Assembly (NCBI RefSeq): GCF_000424005.1
Contig: NZ_AUJB01000008.1
Span: 620,001 to 684,000 of the forward strand
Origin: Pseudobutyrivibrio ruminis CF1b
Lineage (GTDB): Bacteria > Bacillota > Clostridia > Lachnospirales > Lachnospiraceae
Direction of reading: 5' to 3'
DNA length: 64,000 nt
Shown: piece by piece, positions 3,846 through 34,102 of the stretch
Position numbering within the stretch: position 1 is the stretch's first letter
Layout: the number at the start of each line of letters is the position of its first letter
The notes under the pieces: model-generated
What the model saw: only the letters and a program-made list of their open reading frames with translations
Databases searched by the model: none
Told to the model about the DNA's origin: nothing
Translations under genes and position numbers: made by a program

Positions 3846-5642
3846 ATGTTTAACAAAAGAATGGGTCGCAGTGTTTTATCACTATTAGTGGCCTCTGGTT
3901 TAGTATTTAGTGGTTTTAGTATTAACACTGAAACTGTTGAAGCAGCTCAAACTGGTGCATACGGTCTTCAGTCAAATATTAAAGATGGCAATATTCTACA
4001 TTGCTTCGACTGGACATATCAGCAGATAATTGATGAGCTTCCAAATATTGCGGCAGCTGGATTTTCTACAGTTCAAACTTCACCTGCTCAGGCGGCAAGC
4101 TGCTCAAGAGGTGGAATCTGGTATATGCTTTACCAACCAAATGGTTTTTATGTTGGCGATGCAGGTCTTGGTTCAGAAAGTGACTTAAGAAGACTTTGTC
4201 AGGAAGCAGACAAATATGGAATCAAGGTTGTAGTCGACGTCGTAGCAAATCACCTTGCTGGCGATCACGCAAACATCGATGGTAGCCTTAAGGATTCAAG
4301 TCACTGGCATAACGAGTGGGGCGGTATTGATTACAACAATCGTCATCAGATTACTCACAGAGATATCGGTATGCCAGATATTAATTCAGAGGATCCTTAT
4401 GTTCAGAATAAAGTAAAGAATTACATCTCTCAGCTTAAGTCTGATGGAGTTGATGGAATCAGATGGGATGCTGCAAAGCACATTTCTGTTCCATCAGAAA
4501 ATTGCAGCTTCTGGAGAAATGTAATTGATAACTCAATTTTCAATTATGGTGAGATTCTTGATCAGCCTGTAGTCGGTAATGACTCATACGCACAAAGACT
4601 TATGAGCGAGTATACAGATTATATGTCTGTAACTGATTCAGTTTATAGTGCTACAGTAATGCAGGCTTTAAATCAGGGCTCTGTTCCATACAGCTATGGT
4701 TATTGGACAACAGCAAATGGTATCGAGGACAATGAGGTGATTTACTTCGCTGAAAGTCACGATACATATTCTAATCATTCGCAAGGGGAGGGCGGCTGGA
4801 CTAAGTATATTGACCAGAACAAAGTTGACAGAGCATATGCAATCCTTGGTTCAAAAGCAAATTCATCAGCACTTTACTTCTCAAGACCATATGCTAAAGA
4901 AAAGACAGCAATCAAGGTTGGCGAAAAGGGAAGCACACACTTTACAAGCCCTGAAGTTGCTGCAGTAAATAAGCTTCATAACCAGTGTGCAGGCGAGAAG
5001 GAATACTATTCTACATATGGAAATGTAGCTATCGTAGCAAGACAGTCAGGTGCTACACTTGTTTTAGGCTCAGGATCAAATTGGGATGTAAGTGTTTCAA
5101 ATCCAGGAAGTACACTTAGAAGTGGTACATATAAGGATCTTGTAAGTGGAAGCACATTTACAGTAGATGGATCAAATATCAGAGGTCACGTTGGATCAAC
5201 AGGTATTGCAGTTTTACTTAAGGATGTTGGCCCAACTCCAACACCTACACCAACCCCAACACCTACACCAACCCCAACACCAACCCCAACACCTACACCA
5301 ACTCCAACACCTACACCAACTCCAACACCACCAATCGAGAATGAAATTACAGTTTACTTCTCAAATAATGCTAATTGGAGCAATGTATATGTATATACAT
5401 GGGGTGGCAGTGATACAACAGGTTGGCCAGGAAAGGCTGCAACTTTTGTAAAGAAGAACGAGTACAACGAGTCAGTTTATTCTGCTAAGATTCCAAAGGA
5501 TATTAAGGGATTGATTTTCTCTGATGGAAATGGAAGACAGACAGTAGATATTAATTCTGGGTTTGTTGATGGATTAGGATATTATATTTCAGGAAATTCA
5601 GGTAACAAGAGTACAGTTGGCACCTATACTTTTTCTAATTAA
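3846..5642 (+). CDS. Secreted GH13 alpha-amylase with PT linker and starch-binding module
   Basis: Extracellular alpha-amylase, 598 aa. Start chosen at ATG 3846, which has GGAGGA at 3835-3840; an upstream in-frame ATG at 3825 has no ribosome-binding site and would lengthen the signal peptide unnaturally. The N-terminus is a signal peptide (KKR-type basic start, hydrophobic core, probable cut after VEA near residue 34). The GH13 (beta/alpha)8 motifs follow in order: DVVANH (~128), GIRWDAAKH with the nucleophile Asp (~205), GEILD with the acid/base Glu (~235), and ESHD (~303). A proline-threonine linker (~462-496) leads to a C-terminal ~95-residue module (VYFSNNANWSNVYVY, GWPGK) that resembles CBM26. 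It stands alone between terminators with its own sugar-type operators. Confidence 0.93.
   Translation: MFNKRMGRSVLSLLVASGLVFSGFSINTETVEAAQTGAYGLQSNIKDGNILHCFDWTYQQIIDELPNIAAAGFSTVQTSPAQAASCSRGGIWYMLYQPNGFYVGDAGLGSESDLRRLCQEADKYGIKVVVDVVANHLAGDHANIDGSLKDSSHWHNEWGGIDYNNRHQITHRDIGMPDINSEDPYVQNKVKNYISQLKSDGVDGIRWDAAKHISVPSENCSFWRNVIDNSIFNYGEILDQPVVGNDSYAQRLMSEYTDYMSVTDSVYSATVMQALNQGSVPYSYGYWTTANGIEDNEVIYFAESHDTYSNHSQGEGGWTKYIDQNKVDRAYAILGSKANSSALYFSRPYAKEKTAIKVGEKGSTHFTSPEVAAVNKLHNQCAGEKEYYSTYGNVAIVARQSGATLVLGSGSNWDVSVSNPGSTLRSGTYKDLVSGSTFTVDGSNIRGHVGSTGIAVLLKDVGPTPTPTPTPTPTPTPTPTPTPTPTPTPTPTPTPPIENEITVYFSNNANWSNVYVYTWGGSDTTGWPGKAATFVKKNEYNESVYSAKIPKDIKGLIFSDGNGRQTVDINSGFVDGLGYYISGNSGNKSTVGTYTFSN
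5231..5332 (+). repeat. PT-repeat coding tract (amylase linker)
   Basis: About 100 bp of near-perfect 6- and 12-bp repeats (CCAACACCTACA type) encode alternating Pro-Thr, a flexible and probably glycosylated linker between catalytic domain and starch-binding module. Such a tract can change length by slippage. Confidence 0.9.
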
Positions 5643-30511: not shown

Positions 30512-32875
30512 ATGTTACAAGGTCGCGTACTTTGTAGGATTTCCTTGGTGATTATTCTTTTGATAGCAATTAGTGCATATGCCCCCTGGGATTTTCTGGG
30601 GGTATATGATAAGGCTGAAGCAGCTGCCCTTTTGGAGGAAGGGCAGTGGGCTAAAGCAAAAGGTTATATATATCACAAGGAAATAAAGAAAGACAAAGTT
30701 CTTTATTATGTAAAAAACGCTTCTGTTACCACTGGAAGCGGATCACTTTCTAACACATCTTTTATATTCAAATTAGAATCAGACATAATTCCAAATTATT
30801 CAAAAGTAAATATTGAAGGTAAAGTAAAACATTTTTCTGCAGCTACCAATGAGGGCTGTTTTGATATGAAAAACTATTACAACTCCCTTGGGCTTTATCT
30901 GGAGCTGACTGATATTGGAGCTTACGATTATAGCTGCAATTCCTTTGTAGACCATGATTATGGGTTTAAAATCAGGCAAAGGATTTCATCGGTCTATGAA
31001 GTATATCTACTGGGGGAAGAGGCAGGATTTTTATCCAGTGTTGTTATTGGAGAAAAGAGTGGGCTGGATACAGAACTGAAAACCCTTTTTCAAAATGTTG
31101 GCATTGCTCATATTTTAGCTGTGTCAGGTTTGCATATTTCTGTAATCTGTATGGCAGTATACAAAATGCTTCGAAAAAGGGGAGTTGGATTTTTGCTTTG
31201 TGGCACCCTGGCTGGAATGGTGGCGGTGTGCTATGGCTTAGTCACAGGAGGAAGTGTCTCATCTGTCAGAGCTATCGGTATGTTTCTTATATATCTAGTA
31301 GCTCAGATTACGGGAGAGTGCTATGACATGCCTACAGCCATGGCGGTTGTGGCCGATATTCTTTTGCTTGGAAATCCTTTATATATCAAAAACGGTAGTT
31401 TTATTTTCTCTTTTGGAGCAGTAATAGGAATTTATTTTATAGTTCTGCCATTGAATAACGCATTTACGAATTACTTTATGTATCTCAGGCGTTCCAAAAA
31501 ATCTCATGACAAGTTTTATGCTGACGAAACCTGGCTTCATAAAGTAATTCAGTATATTTGTAGCAGTCTGGTATTTTCCTTTGGAATGTTTGTAGCGATG
31601 CTGCCGCTGGTTACCCAGCTATACTATCAAACACCATTATATTCGGTGTTTTTGAATCTGTTGGTGCTGCCAATTATGCCGGTGGTGCTTGGAACAGGAT
31701 TAATAGCAGGAATCATCGGAGCTTGTGCTGGACTTGGTTCATCTGCTCTTATTGGGTGGAAAATGTTTCCAGCGTTGTTTGTAAAAATCTTACTATTTAT
31801 TTGTCATTGCATTATATACCAATATGAGTTGCTTTCTGATTTTGTTCAGAGACTTCCTGGCTCCACAATGGTTGTAGGATACCGAAGCATGTGGACTGTT
31901 GTGATTTATTATTTGATATTACTGTTTATAGTATATGGATTGGATTATATAACAAAAAATATTAATTCAGGTAAAAAGGTGAATCAAAGGAATTCATTAT
32001 TGCTTAAAGCAGGTGCATTTATTTTCATAGCCATATTATGGCTGCACCCTCAAAAGGGAGAATTTGAAATAGATATCCTTGATGTGGGCCAGGGCGACGG
32101 AATCTATATTAACTCTGGTGATGGGGCACGTTTCTTTATTGATGGAGGTAGCACTTCATCAGATGCTGTGGGTCAATATACCTTGATGCCATTTTTGAAA
32201 TACAAAGGGGTTGGTTCTATTGATTACTGGTTCATTACACATATGGATTTGGACCATGTGTCAGGAGTTCTGGAGTTACTTGAACGGGGCTATCAGATTG
32301 ATAATATTGTCTTGTCGGCAGAGATTCCCGAAGGAGAAACTCTGTCACAGTTGTTGGCACTGGCAGAGCATAATGATACTAACGTCCTGTATATGAAACA
32401 GGGAGATGAGTGTGGTACTAGAAATTTATCCTTTACCTGTGTCTATCCATATTCAGGAATGGTTTCGGATGATGTTAATGACTTGTCATTATGTCTTCTT
32501 ATGGAATATGAAAATCATGGATTGTTTTCTCGAGAAACTGAGGAGCCAGGGGGGTTCTTTGCCTTCTTCGGTGGTGACATAGCAGCTGAGCAGGAGCGGG
32601 CTATAGCTTCATCAGGCTTTGTAGACCACGTGGATCTGCTTAAGGTCAGCCACCACGGCAGTCGCTTTAGCTCGGATAGTGACTTCCTGTCGGCATTGTC
32701 ACCGGATGTAGCAGTCATCAGCTGCGCCAAGATTAATCGATATGGTCACCCATCTGCTGAAGCGATAGAACGCCTTGAGGCCGCGGCAGGTTCCATCTAT
32801 TACACCATGAACTCCGGCCGCGTGAGGGTGAACGCAGCAGGAGTGGATGAATATATCTCTGAGAAATTATTTTAA
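30512..32875 (+). CDS. comEC: ComEC/Rec2 DNA uptake channel
   Basis: 787-aa polytopic membrane protein. N-terminal TM and extracytoplasmic OB-like domain (~1-180), Competence domain with about nine TM helices (~195-500; GIAHILAVSGLHISV signature at ~196), and a C-terminal metallo-beta-lactamase-like domain (~515-787) with DVGQGDGIYI, THMDLDHVSG and SHHGS. The MBL metal motif is HxDxDH-like, so nuclease activity on the incoming strand is plausible. Start ATG 30512 behind AGGAGG. Together with comEA it implies at least the core of a natural transformation apparatus; no comG genes are in the window. Confidence 0.93.
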   Translation: MLQGRVLCRISLVIILLIAISAYAPWDFLGVYDKAEAAALLEEGQWAKAKGYIYHKEIKKDKVLYYVKNASVTTGSGSLSNTSFIFKLESDIIPNYSKVNIEGKVKHFSAATNEGCFDMKNYYNSLGLYLELTDIGAYDYSCNSFVDHDYGFKIRQRISSVYEVYLLGEEAGFLSSVVIGEKSGLDTELKTLFQNVGIAHILAVSGLHISVICMAVYKMLRKRGVGFLLCGTLAGMVAVCYGLVTGGSVSSVRAIGMFLIYLVAQITGECYDMPTAMAVVADILLLGNPLYIKNGSFIFSFGAVIGIYFIVLPLNNAFTNYFMYLRRSKKSHDKFYADETWLHKVIQYICSSLVFSFGMFVAMLPLVTQLYYQTPLYSVFLNLLVLPIMPVVLGTGLIAGIIGACAGLGSSALIGWKMFPALFVKILLFICHCIIYQYELLSDFVQRLPGSTMVVGYRSMWTVVIYYLILLFIVYGLDYITKNINSGKKVNQRNSLLLKAGAFIFIAILWLHPQKGEFEIDILDVGQGDGIYINSGDGARFFIDGGSTSSDAVGQYTLMPFLKYKGVGSIDYWFITHMDLDHVSGVLELLERGYQIDNIVLSAEIPEGETLSQLLALAEHNDTNVLYMKQGDECGTRNLSFTCVYPYSGMVSDDVNDLSLCLLMEYENHGLFSRETEEPGGFFAFFGGDIAAEQERAIASSGFVDHVDLLKVSHHGSRFSSDSDFLSALSPDVAVISCAKINRYGHPSAEAIERLEAAAGSIYYTMNSGRVRVNAAGVDEYISEKLF

Positions 32876-32890
32876 TAGCCCATTGTTGAG

Positions 32891-33242
32891 TTACTACCTG
32901 TTATTAAGAAGAACGATTGGGGAGGGAGTAACTTATTTTGAGGTTACTACCTAGGAAAAGAAAAATTGAATAGATAGTACCTTAGAGAGAAATTTATACT
33001 ACCTAGATTAAGAAAAGTTATACAGGTAGTAATATAAAAGGTAAAGTTTACTACCTTTAAAAAGAAAGTCTCTACAGGTAGTAGCCGAAATAGAAAAGTC
33101 TACTACCTAAGATTTGAAAACCACCACAGGTAGTAGCCAAAATCATAATGTTTACTATCTGTGTAAAGATAAAACACCACAGGTAGTAAACACAACTAAG
33201 TAGATTACTACCTGTGAAGCGTGGTCAATGATTAGGTAGTAA
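32891..33242. repeat. Array of ~52-bp units with alternating AGGTAGTA / TACTACCT octamers
   Basis: TACTACCT starts at 32892, 32945, 32997, 33049, 33101, 33153 (as TACTATCT) and 33206. AGGTAGTA starts at 32923 and 32972 (degenerate), 33024, 33076, 33128, 33181 and 33234. Each motif therefore recurs every 52-53 bp, and the two alternate every 25-27 bp in opposite orientation. Each AGGTAGTA-N17-TACTACCT forms an exact 33-nt hairpin unit. Sequence between octamers varies, with some shared bits (ACCACC, GCCrAAAT). It fills the space from comEC to a nuclease-like gene. Known repeat families were not recognised. Confidence 0.9.
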
Positions 33243-33313: not shown

Positions 33314-34102
33314 ATGAATATAGGAATATTAGAAAAAGAACTCAATGAAATCGATGAATCGATAAAGAAATTAAGACTTAGGGAAAAAGTAGTGATAAAG
33401 TCTTCTAATTCTGTAGTTGTTAAGAAAGGAAATGGTGTGTACCAATATTACTATCGCGACGGATTAGGTAATCTGACGTACATACCGTCAAGAAATAATA
33501 ATTATGCAAAAGAACTAGTACAACGAGATTACTACAACAAGTTAATGGATAAACTACAAGAACAAAAGAGTATTCTTGAAAAATTTATTAAAAGATATGA
33601 AGAAAACCCGATAGACGCAGTGTATGAAAAGTTTTGTAAGGGTAGACAGATACTAATAGAGCCTCTTCGTCCGATAGAACAAGAATTTGTTAACCAGTGG
33701 CTAGACGAGCATCCGGGTAATCAAAATCCATTTGAGAAAAGGGACACATATCTAACTAATCGCGGGGAATATGTTAGATCAAAGTCAGAAAAGATATTAG
33801 CAGATTTATTTTATCAAATGGGAATTCCATATCAGTATGAAGCTTCTTATGTATTATATAATGGTAAGATATGTTATCCTGATTTTATTCTACTAAATAA
33901 AAGAGATAGAAAAACATTTTATTGGGAACATTTTGGACTGGCTTCTGATAAGGATTATTCAGAAACAAATTTGGAAAAGCTATTAAGATATGAAAAGTCA
34001 GGGCTTGTTTTAGGAGATAATTTAATAGTTTCTTTTGAATCGGCTGGAATCAGCTTTGATGTTAAATTGATTGAAGAGAAAATCAAGACTTATCTTTTAT
34101 AA
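33314..34102 (+). CDS. PD-(D/E)xK-like nuclease-fold protein, unknown role
   Basis: 262 aa. N-terminal half is helical and charged, with a coiled coil (~1-25) and a second helical run (~70-100); it contains YQYYYRDGLGNLTYIP. The C-terminal half looks like a restriction-endonuclease fold: VRSKSEKILADLF (~155), then YEASYVLYNGKICYPDFILL (~180-199), then YWEHFG (~208). E..PDF..WEH is a PD-(D/E)xK pattern with the lysine replaced by His, known from a family of clostridial hypothetical proteins. The gene appears richer in A and T than its neighbours and is directly downstream of the repeat array, which suggests transfer as a unit. Nuclease activity is inferred. Confidence 0.7.
   Translation: MNIGILEKELNEIDESIKKLRLREKVVIKSSNSVVVKKGNGVYQYYYRDGLGNLTYIPSRNNNYAKELVQRDYYNKLMDKLQEQKSILEKFIKRYEENPIDAVYEKFCKGRQILIEPLRPIEQEFVNQWLDEHPGNQNPFEKRDTYLTNRGEYVRSKSEKILADLFYQMGIPYQYEASYVLYNGKICYPDFILLNKRDRKTFYWEHFGLASDKDYSETNLEKLLRYEKSGLVLGDNLIVSFESAGISFDVKLIEEKIKTYLL

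Follow-up and report, generated by a model that had tools for sequence, protein, structure and literature searches.

What is the regular array of short alternating sites that fills the interval between comEC and the gene for a 262-aa PD-(D/E)XK-like protein in this Pseudobutyrivibrio species, and what relation does it bear to that gene? We addressed this question in the 64-kb stretch of DNA that contains the locus (hereafter, the window) and in related genomes. The features of the locus are as follows.

30512-32875, + strand: comEC, the upstream neighbour of the array-gene pair
32892-33241, no strand: phased array of 14 octamers in seven inverted pairs TACTACCT-N-AGGTAGTA, period 52-53 bp
32892-32930, no strand: module 1, TACTACCT (32892-32899) and degenerate AGGGAGTA (32923-32930), spacing 4 bp off
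32945-32979, no strand: module 2, TACTACCT and AGATAGTA
32997-33031, no strand: module 3, TACTACCT and AGGTAGTA
33049-33083, no strand: module 4, TACTACCT and AGGTAGTA
33101-33135, no strand: module 5, TACTACCT and AGGTAGTA
33153-33188, no strand: module 6, TACTATCT and AGGTAGTA
33206-33241, no strand: module 7, TACTACCT and AGGTAGTA
33314-34102, + strand: gene for the 262-aa PD-(D/E)XK-like protein, which has an N-terminal region of helix, three-strand sheet and long helix and is presumed to be the array's cognate protein

An array of conserved octamers at fixed spacing

The seven inverted pairs have the form TACTACCT-N19/20-AGGTAGTA and lie about 52 bp apart. Consecutive sites are separated by 25 bp (+ to -) and 27-28 bp (- to +), with the shifted degenerate site at 32923 as the exception. 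A first-pass annotation had recognised the array, its alternation and five exact plus two degenerate copies of AGGTAGTA, and these we recovered (exact starts at 33024, 33076, 33128, 33181 and 33234; AGATAGTA at 32972 and AGGGAGTA at 32923). Its count of seven exact copies of TACTACCT has to be lowered to six (starts at 32892, 32945, 32997, 33049, 33101 and 33206), the seventh octamer of this kind being TACTATCT at 33153. Counting both strands, the window holds 11 exact copies of AGGTAGTA, all of them within 32892-33241 (shuffled sequences: mean 1.24, maximum 4). The chain appeared in 0 of 200 resampled sequences, and among 70 window tiles of 910 bp only one contains an array, namely the array described here.

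The octamers and their spacing are conserved while the sequence between them drifts, as the same annotation had stated. Pairwise identity is 96% for the octamers (13 of 14, without AGGGAGTA), as opposed to 43% for the N17 spacers and 40% for the N19 spacers (composition expectation 29%). The array is also A+T-richer than its surroundings, again as claimed (33% G+C versus 39% in the window). The unit proposed earlier, AGGTAGTA-N17-TACTACCT, is not the one we favour. The window array and most chains found elsewhere begin with TACTACCT (99 of 108 chains) and finish with AGGTAGTA (94 of 108), and the natural unit is therefore TACTACCT-N19-AGGTAGTA.

Arrays accompany a family of nuclease-like genes

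We identified relatives of the window protein in 28 of 29 genomes of the genus, with at most 12 paralogs per genome. Arrays were sought within 900 bp on each side of the genes for 103 distinct genus proteins (108 of 110 loci examined) and 23 proteins from other genera of the order; sides shorter than 300 bp were left unscored. Of 122 family genes scored upstream, 93 have an array there; downstream, the count is 19 of 124, and Markov-resampled controls gave 3 of 738. Many of the tested genes are orthologous and so not independent. The link to the nuclease-fold gene, first suggested from this single locus, thus extends to the family. Upstream arrays are often less than 100 bp from the gene start, and 29 of the 122 upstream regions contain no array at the threshold used. 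Arrays flank both sides of the gene at five loci (L038, L039, L041, L254 and L259), the last two in other genera. Upstream regions of other ORFs at the same loci contain an array in 15 of 95 cases, and several of these bear the octamer of a neighbouring family gene, as is expected where the intergenic region is shared.

Across the order, 50 of 295 genomes matched a family profile with a cut-off of E 1e-10, and 40 still matched at E 1e-50. These matches comprise the window's family and at least one other, and the weaker ones may share the C-terminal domain only. In other genera, the arrays beside the gene consist of unrelated octamers. A thinner sample of the phylum (398 genomes) gave 7 matches at E 1e-25, five in the window's family and two inside longer ORFs only. 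The carriers are gut and rumen bacteria, in which the nuclease-like genes tend to adjoin an octamer array of their own.

Octamer types follow protein types

A blind word scan of gene flanks revealed different octamers in the arrays beside other paralogs. We compared octamer sharing with protein identity for 91 array-bearing genes (4095 pairs). The fraction of pairs with a common octamer rises from 9 of 3148 below 40% protein identity to 28 of 689 at 40-50%, 33 of 143 at 50-60%, 47 of 88 at 60-75% and, above 75%, 24 of 27. Protein and octamer change together, and each gene type has its own octamer. The N-terminal half of the protein predicts the octamer slightly better than the C-terminal half (AUC 0.947 versus 0.916).

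Read by eye, many octamers fit the form NNNNGTA(A/G), including AGGTAGTA, ACCCGTAA, AGTGGTAA, AGACGTAA, CACTGTAA and GTCCGTAA, while others, such as GGCATAAA, TTGATAAA and AAGCATAT, lie outside it. comEC adjoins the family gene in 13 of 30 loci (L030-L059), and at this syntenic position the octamer drifts among species through AGGTAGTA, AGATAGTA, AGGCAGTA, GGTGGTAG and AGGCAGG.

Array periods step by whole helical turns

Period modes, taken per gene cluster and side, fall into discrete groups: 30 at 51-54 bp, 14 at 61-65 bp, 16 at 72-75 bp and 2 at 83 bp. Sixty-two of 67 modes thus lie within bands for five, six, seven or eight helical turns, and the best common spacing is 10.5-10.75 bp; the clusters have common ancestry, so the 67 modes are not independent draws. 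The five modes off this ladder are 45, 58, 70, 87 and 96; in cluster L047, the value 58 is a median between 53 and 63. Periods also shift by about one turn inside clusters L045, L047 and L189.

The octamer type of the window array, here called type 1, shows the same behaviour at single steps. Consecutive exact octamers are 25 bp (270 cases) or 24 bp (50) apart from + to -, and 27 bp (277) or 28 bp (101) apart from - to +. The most frequent departures from these steps fall about one turn short (+ to -, 14 bp in ten cases and 15 bp in three; - to +, 17 bp in two), as do same-strand steps of 41 and 42 bp. One dispersed family, present in P. xylanivorans and in the window's genome, contributes most of the ten 14-bp steps, and another lineage the three 15-bp steps, so these deviants represent few independent events. 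Rarer steps are 6 (two cases), 17, 22 and 23 bp from + to - and 25, 26, 31 and 46 bp from - to + (one each); longer steps are mostly skipped sites. Because periods move by whole turns, from five to eight, the phased sites point to protein bound to duplex DNA.

We also looked for covariation within the inverted pairs. Among 101 distinct type-1 chains, neighbouring - + octamers are identical at a frequency of 0.518 (within-array shuffles: 0.502, with 64 of 500 at or above the observed frequency), and neighbouring + - octamers at 0.517 (shuffles: 0.498; 51 of 500). Neither type-1 comparison is significant. The octamers vary largely independently of one another, the pattern expected of separate binding sites. 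An Rfam search of the window gave 0 matches at gathering score.

Arrays are dispersed between genes

The exact type-1 pair occurs at three further sites in the window's genome (C7:156.7 kb, C8:58.8 kb and C8:67.2 kb), and a reversed control gave none. In ORF lists around these sites (about 8 and 15 kb) no family gene was seen; the family matches of this genome lie elsewhere. Searching species genomes for three octamers in sequence, we identified 86 stretches, mostly labelled Pseudobutyrivibrio or Lachnospiraceae and many from rumen samples. Three 3-site stretches labelled Bacteroidota, Anaerobiospirillum and Ruminococcus look like chance and were excluded from the analyses of gene context, covariation and variant agreement; L069, also with three sites, was excluded from those of gene context and variant agreement.

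No family gene was found within the 3.5-8 kb examined around 77 of the 86 stretches; one of the 77, L108, flanks a gene that the border of the stretch divides. The first-pass annotation had proposed that arrays at many loci without the gene would speak against the link. Such loci are indeed numerous, yet the link stands, because in all eight genomes with both kinds of array the commonest octamer variant of the dispersed arrays is also the gene-adjacent variant, an agreement to be read with the relatedness of the eight genomes and the bias of the search pattern towards AGRYAGTA in mind. Rarer variants are also common to both kinds of array (AGGAAGTA in YE44 and AAGCAGTA in MZ8). DSM 9787 and YE44 carry many dispersed AGGCAGTA sites, a sequence absent among their commonest gene-adjacent variants.

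Dispersal was found for three of the four octamer types tested. The gene of the AGTGGTAA type (L213) is present in 14 of 29 genomes, in one copy each at E 1e-70. Its pattern matches 15 genomes, comprising all 14 with the gene and one of the 15 without. The gene's own array counts among these matches, and the informative part is therefore the single gene-less genome together with matches at more than one place; all seven genomes with itemised matches (G019, G011, G007, G041, G015, G021 and G002) have them at two or more places. In G021, several AGTGGTAA arrays occur without a detected gene of that type and are possible orphans left after gene loss. The AAGCATAT type matches G022 (19 matches), G008 (8) and the window's genome (one pair), with none in 26 others and none in the control; the two genomes with many matches, G022 and G008, are also those with a known gene of this type. 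The GGCATAAA type was sought in the window's genome, where it occurs beside its own gene only, with no dispersed copies.

Low counts carry no meaning for type 1, since a search that tolerates two mismatches gives up to 9 matches with the reversed control in one genome. Clear type-1 arrays occur in two fragmented genomes (G005 and G023; L017 and L024) in which the closest match to the window protein has 39% and 43% identity, respectively. The gene is present in G003 beside a degenerate array that gave no pattern match.

A chromosome can carry several arrays; one contig has them at 0.22, 1.78 and 1.90 Mb. None of 56 dispersed type-1 arrays lies inside a long ORF. With approximate gene models, 54 could be classified by the orientation of the neighbouring genes, which is tandem for 43, convergent for 8 and divergent for 3 (background of the gene models: 441 tandem, 34 convergent and 36 divergent).

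Presence, absence and a copied array at single loci

Array presence is polymorphic at pyrI. This gene occurs in 27 of 29 genomes, and among 29 pyrI loci, two of which end soon after the gene, a window-type array lies within 1.5 kb in the window's genome only. The interval between the aligned pyrI and GH25 regions measures about 35-55 bp in G008 and G009. The pyrI site of P. xylanivorans DSM 14809 (G022) instead contains five AAGCATATA/TATATGCTT units with a period of 74 (L269, 1105-1440), which carry the octamer of another resident paralog, that of the AAGCATAT type. In G022 and the window's genome, the pyrI-site arrays (AAGCATATA/TATATGCTT and AGGTAGTA, respectively) are each bracketed by terminator-like hairpins whose sequences are similar.

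The array found at C8:58.8 kb in the window's genome is an 87.5% copy of a 337-bp segment at C8:67.2 kb; the segment includes the last 37 bp of an epimerase ORF. The epimerase fragment carried along suggests that copying ran from C8:67.2 kb to C8:58.8 kb. On its right, the copy ends within an octamer; a neighbouring acetyltransferase gene now takes its stop codon from this octamer (CAG TAA; L029, 9104-9112), and the copy thus altered how that gene ends. Target-site duplications could not be delimited. In an empty-site comparison, the GNAT gene had no clear orthologue in other genomes (best identity outside its own genome 33%); a partial homologue in its own genome was used to define the copy junction.

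A probable restriction-endonuclease-like C-terminus

Fifteen residues are invariant in all 98 aligned proteins, including R155-S156-K157-S158-E159, P189-D190 and E205-H206. The C-terminal core E...PDF...E is present, with WEH in place of the usual ExK motif and its catalytic lysine. The best solved relative of the family profile is T7 endonuclease I (E 0.003, about 40 positions). An AlphaFold2 model (pLDDT 81, built from nine sequences) runs from a helix through three strands and a long helix to a C-terminal domain. Foldseek matched this model weakly (best E 0.02) to DrdV, MunI, R2 endonuclease, Can2, Bax1 and FAN1; V-ATPase and prefoldin chains, which align to the long helices, were listed in between. 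The model and its Foldseek matches point to a restriction-endonuclease-like C-terminus, with a putative nuclease activity.

The N-terminal region of the model gave no match in a fold search (best E 0.16), which leaves the idea of an AP2/arm-type DNA-binding domain unsupported. The window protein belongs to no Pfam or NCBIfam family, and 40 family members gave scattered weak matches only, the Y1 transposase family not among them.

The C-terminal domain also occurs in other contexts. PADLOC model PDC-S68 matches it at 1.5e-26, and a homologous domain ends long proteins on viral contigs and plasmids that are mostly annotated there as AAA family ATPases. On nine viral contigs (L226-L234), these proteins have 723-969 aa, and the two whose sequences were inspected look like helicases from their motifs. 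No arrays were detected at these nine genes, whose downstream side only was long enough to score, and a search of viral contigs for the array pattern found 0. Seven plasmid records match the window protein with query coverage of 25-68%, none reaching 80%, and one of three matching phage records covers 84%. We thus rejected a phage or plasmid element as the source of the system. A reading of the ORF list showed no defence or cas genes near the window gene.

Comparison with known systems

The closest parallel is with REPtrons, in which a resident single-copy enzyme has cognate repeats at its gene and genome-wide (PMC8266576). Likewise, the genes described here (TnpA-REP/RAYT in REPtrons, with REP, REPIN and BIME repeats) lie beside cognate inverted repeats, upstream far more often than downstream; the repeats of three types are scattered in intergenic DNA; gene presence correlates with repeat presence; and pairing of protein and repeat is type-specific. 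For the L213 type, on which the gene count was made, each of the 14 carrier genomes has a single match at E 1e-70, and there is no sign of gene mobility, given the comEC synteny and the lack of a plasmid record covering 80% of the protein. The tandem alternating copies resemble BIMEs as defined there (PMC8266576).

The differences concern the enzyme and the repeat. The fold is PD-(D/E)XK-like rather than that of the HuH/Y1 tyrosine transposase of REPtrons; the unit is not a GTAG-tagged palindrome; sites phased at five to eight helical turns without significant hairpin covariation take the place of hairpins; and few long arrays occur rather than hundreds of single palindromes. Membership among REPtrons accordingly fails on the HuH enzyme and on the hairpin, for which the tests are indirect.

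Other systems share single features with this one. T7 endonuclease I, DrdV, MunI, R2 endonuclease, Bax1 and FAN1 resemble the modelled C-terminal fold and its E...PDF...E core, but similarity to T7 endonuclease I is limited to the short profile match noted above, and EH takes the place of ExK. We know of no counterpart among PD-(D/E)XK nucleases for the N-terminal region and the arrays. PDC-S68 and the long ATPase-type proteins share the C-terminal domain but are far larger than the 262-aa window protein (PDC-S68 models have 1202-1273 positions). CRISPR loci likewise combine short repeated motifs, variable spacers and an adjoining nuclease-like gene. The octamers of the window array, however, alternate in orientation instead of forming direct repeats, its spacers drift and are partly shared between copies instead of being unique, array periods are quantised, and the ORF list shows no cas gene at the locus. 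Plasmid iterons and partition sites are single cis sites with rep or par genes, whereas here several arrays occur per chromosome.

Among the papers listed in searches of the open-access literature, we found no description of such a system. These comparisons suggest a new kind of protein-and-repeat system, and we rate its kind as new and the activity of its protein as putative.

A probable cognate array-protein system

We consider it probable that the array and the gene form a cognate system in which a protein binds phased sites, each paralog recognises its own octamer, and the resident protein maintains and probably copies the arrays. The array would be the cognate DNA of the adjacent gene at 33314. 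Its protein, probably an oligomer held together by the long helix, would bind the octamer in duplex DNA, and alternating sites at whole helical turns would yield a regular nucleoprotein complex. Many paralogs would each keep an octamer, with protein and octamer changing together. For some types, the arrays would form an intragenomic population between genes that the resident protein maintains and probably copies, the PD-(D/E)XK domain supplying the DNA cut for copying. Such a system would work in the manner of a REPtron (RAYT/REPIN) with a different enzyme and with double-stranded phased sites in place of single-stranded hairpins. This reading builds on array-gene linkage, type specificity, phasing, dispersal, octamer agreement and presence or absence at one locus, all of them properties of genome sequence; octamer binding, catalysis and a role in array copying or upkeep are what we infer for the protein. 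The arrays may also have dispersed by ordinary recombination.

A plainer reading is that these proteins are sequence-specific regulators or nucleoid organisers, the upstream array being an autoregulatory operator and the scattered arrays architectural, with ordinary recombination or duplication responsible for spread and the nuclease domain uninvolved. The mostly upstream position of arrays, often close to the gene start, fits an operator, phased sites would suit a regulatory or architectural complex, and the in-genome copy that carries 37 bp of a neighbouring gene resembles a segmental duplication. We nevertheless regard this reading as unlikely, as PD-(D/E)XK-like residues are strictly invariant in 98 of 98 proteins, only 3 of 54 classified dispersed type-1 arrays lie between divergent genes, and array presence is polymorphic at one locus. 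A role in defence or addiction, in which a sponge array keeps a sequence-specific nuclease harmless or in position and distinct specificities avoid cross-talk between paralogs, draws on the PDC-S68 match, on the shared domain at the ends of long viral and plasmid proteins, and on the many paralogs with different specificities. It is improbable in our judgement: comEC-linked relatives are chromosomal and syntenic, plasmid matches are partial and only one phage record covers most of the protein, no defence genes were seen next to the window gene in the ORF list, and a local sponge leaves the scattered arrays unexplained.

Among the readings offered by the first-pass annotation, a multi-site DNA-binding array and an undescribed, possibly mobile unit agree with the sequence patterns described above, whereas small RNA hairpins and a single origin or partition locus do not. 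Transcription of the array into tandem hairpin RNAs, or REP-like single-stranded hairpins, would make use of the ability of inverted octamers to pair, and pair members are identical slightly more often than in shuffles. That excess is not significant, however, loop and linker lengths are both nearly fixed while periods move by helical turns, and Rfam gave no match. Hairpins are thus not favoured, given the covariation result and the helical quantisation, and we give them very little credence. Replication-origin iterons or the partition centromere of a plasmid or secondary replicon would likewise place a regular multi-site array beside the gene of a DNA-associated protein, but the arrays at many chromosomal sites, up to 12 paralogs in a genome and the absence of a plasmid record covering 80% of the protein make this the most far-fetched of the readings.

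The cognate array-protein system can be stated in a bolder form, which we put forward tentatively and hold slightly more doubtful than not. The PD-(D/E)XK-like family would possess a readable protein-DNA code, each paralog building its own phased complex and driving the copying and upkeep of its own array, with several independent pairs coexisting on a chromosome. In this code, held with the same reserve, many octamers would read NNNN-GTA-A/G with a type-specific first half. If true, the REPtron lifestyle, in which a host-resident enzyme lives with a cognate repeat population, would have been reached a second time and by an unrelated route. Dozens of natural protein-octamer pairs would allow a DNA-recognition code to be read, and the system would permit a clean test of what makes bacteria retain repeat populations of this kind. 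Helical quantisation at 5, 6, 7 or 8 turns makes a sharp prediction for a simple binding assay.

Other repeats

Several individual repeats deserve mention. At a comEC locus of G017 (L040), two different arrays accompany the family gene, one upstream with a period of about 54 bp and one downstream with a period of 72 bp (TACTCCTA). A very regular 73-bp array with the word TTATCAA lies by a paralog in G003 (L163), with 20 copies in one cluster and further sites of this word on the other side of the paralog. Downstream of another G017 paralog (L059), the palindromic TCTATAGA recurs at 45-bp steps; it lies off the ladder of five to eight turns and is possibly unrelated. Within the window, positions 5232-5330 contain a low-complexity tandem repeat with 12/18/30-bp units (CCAACACCAACA), perhaps a linker-coding stretch.
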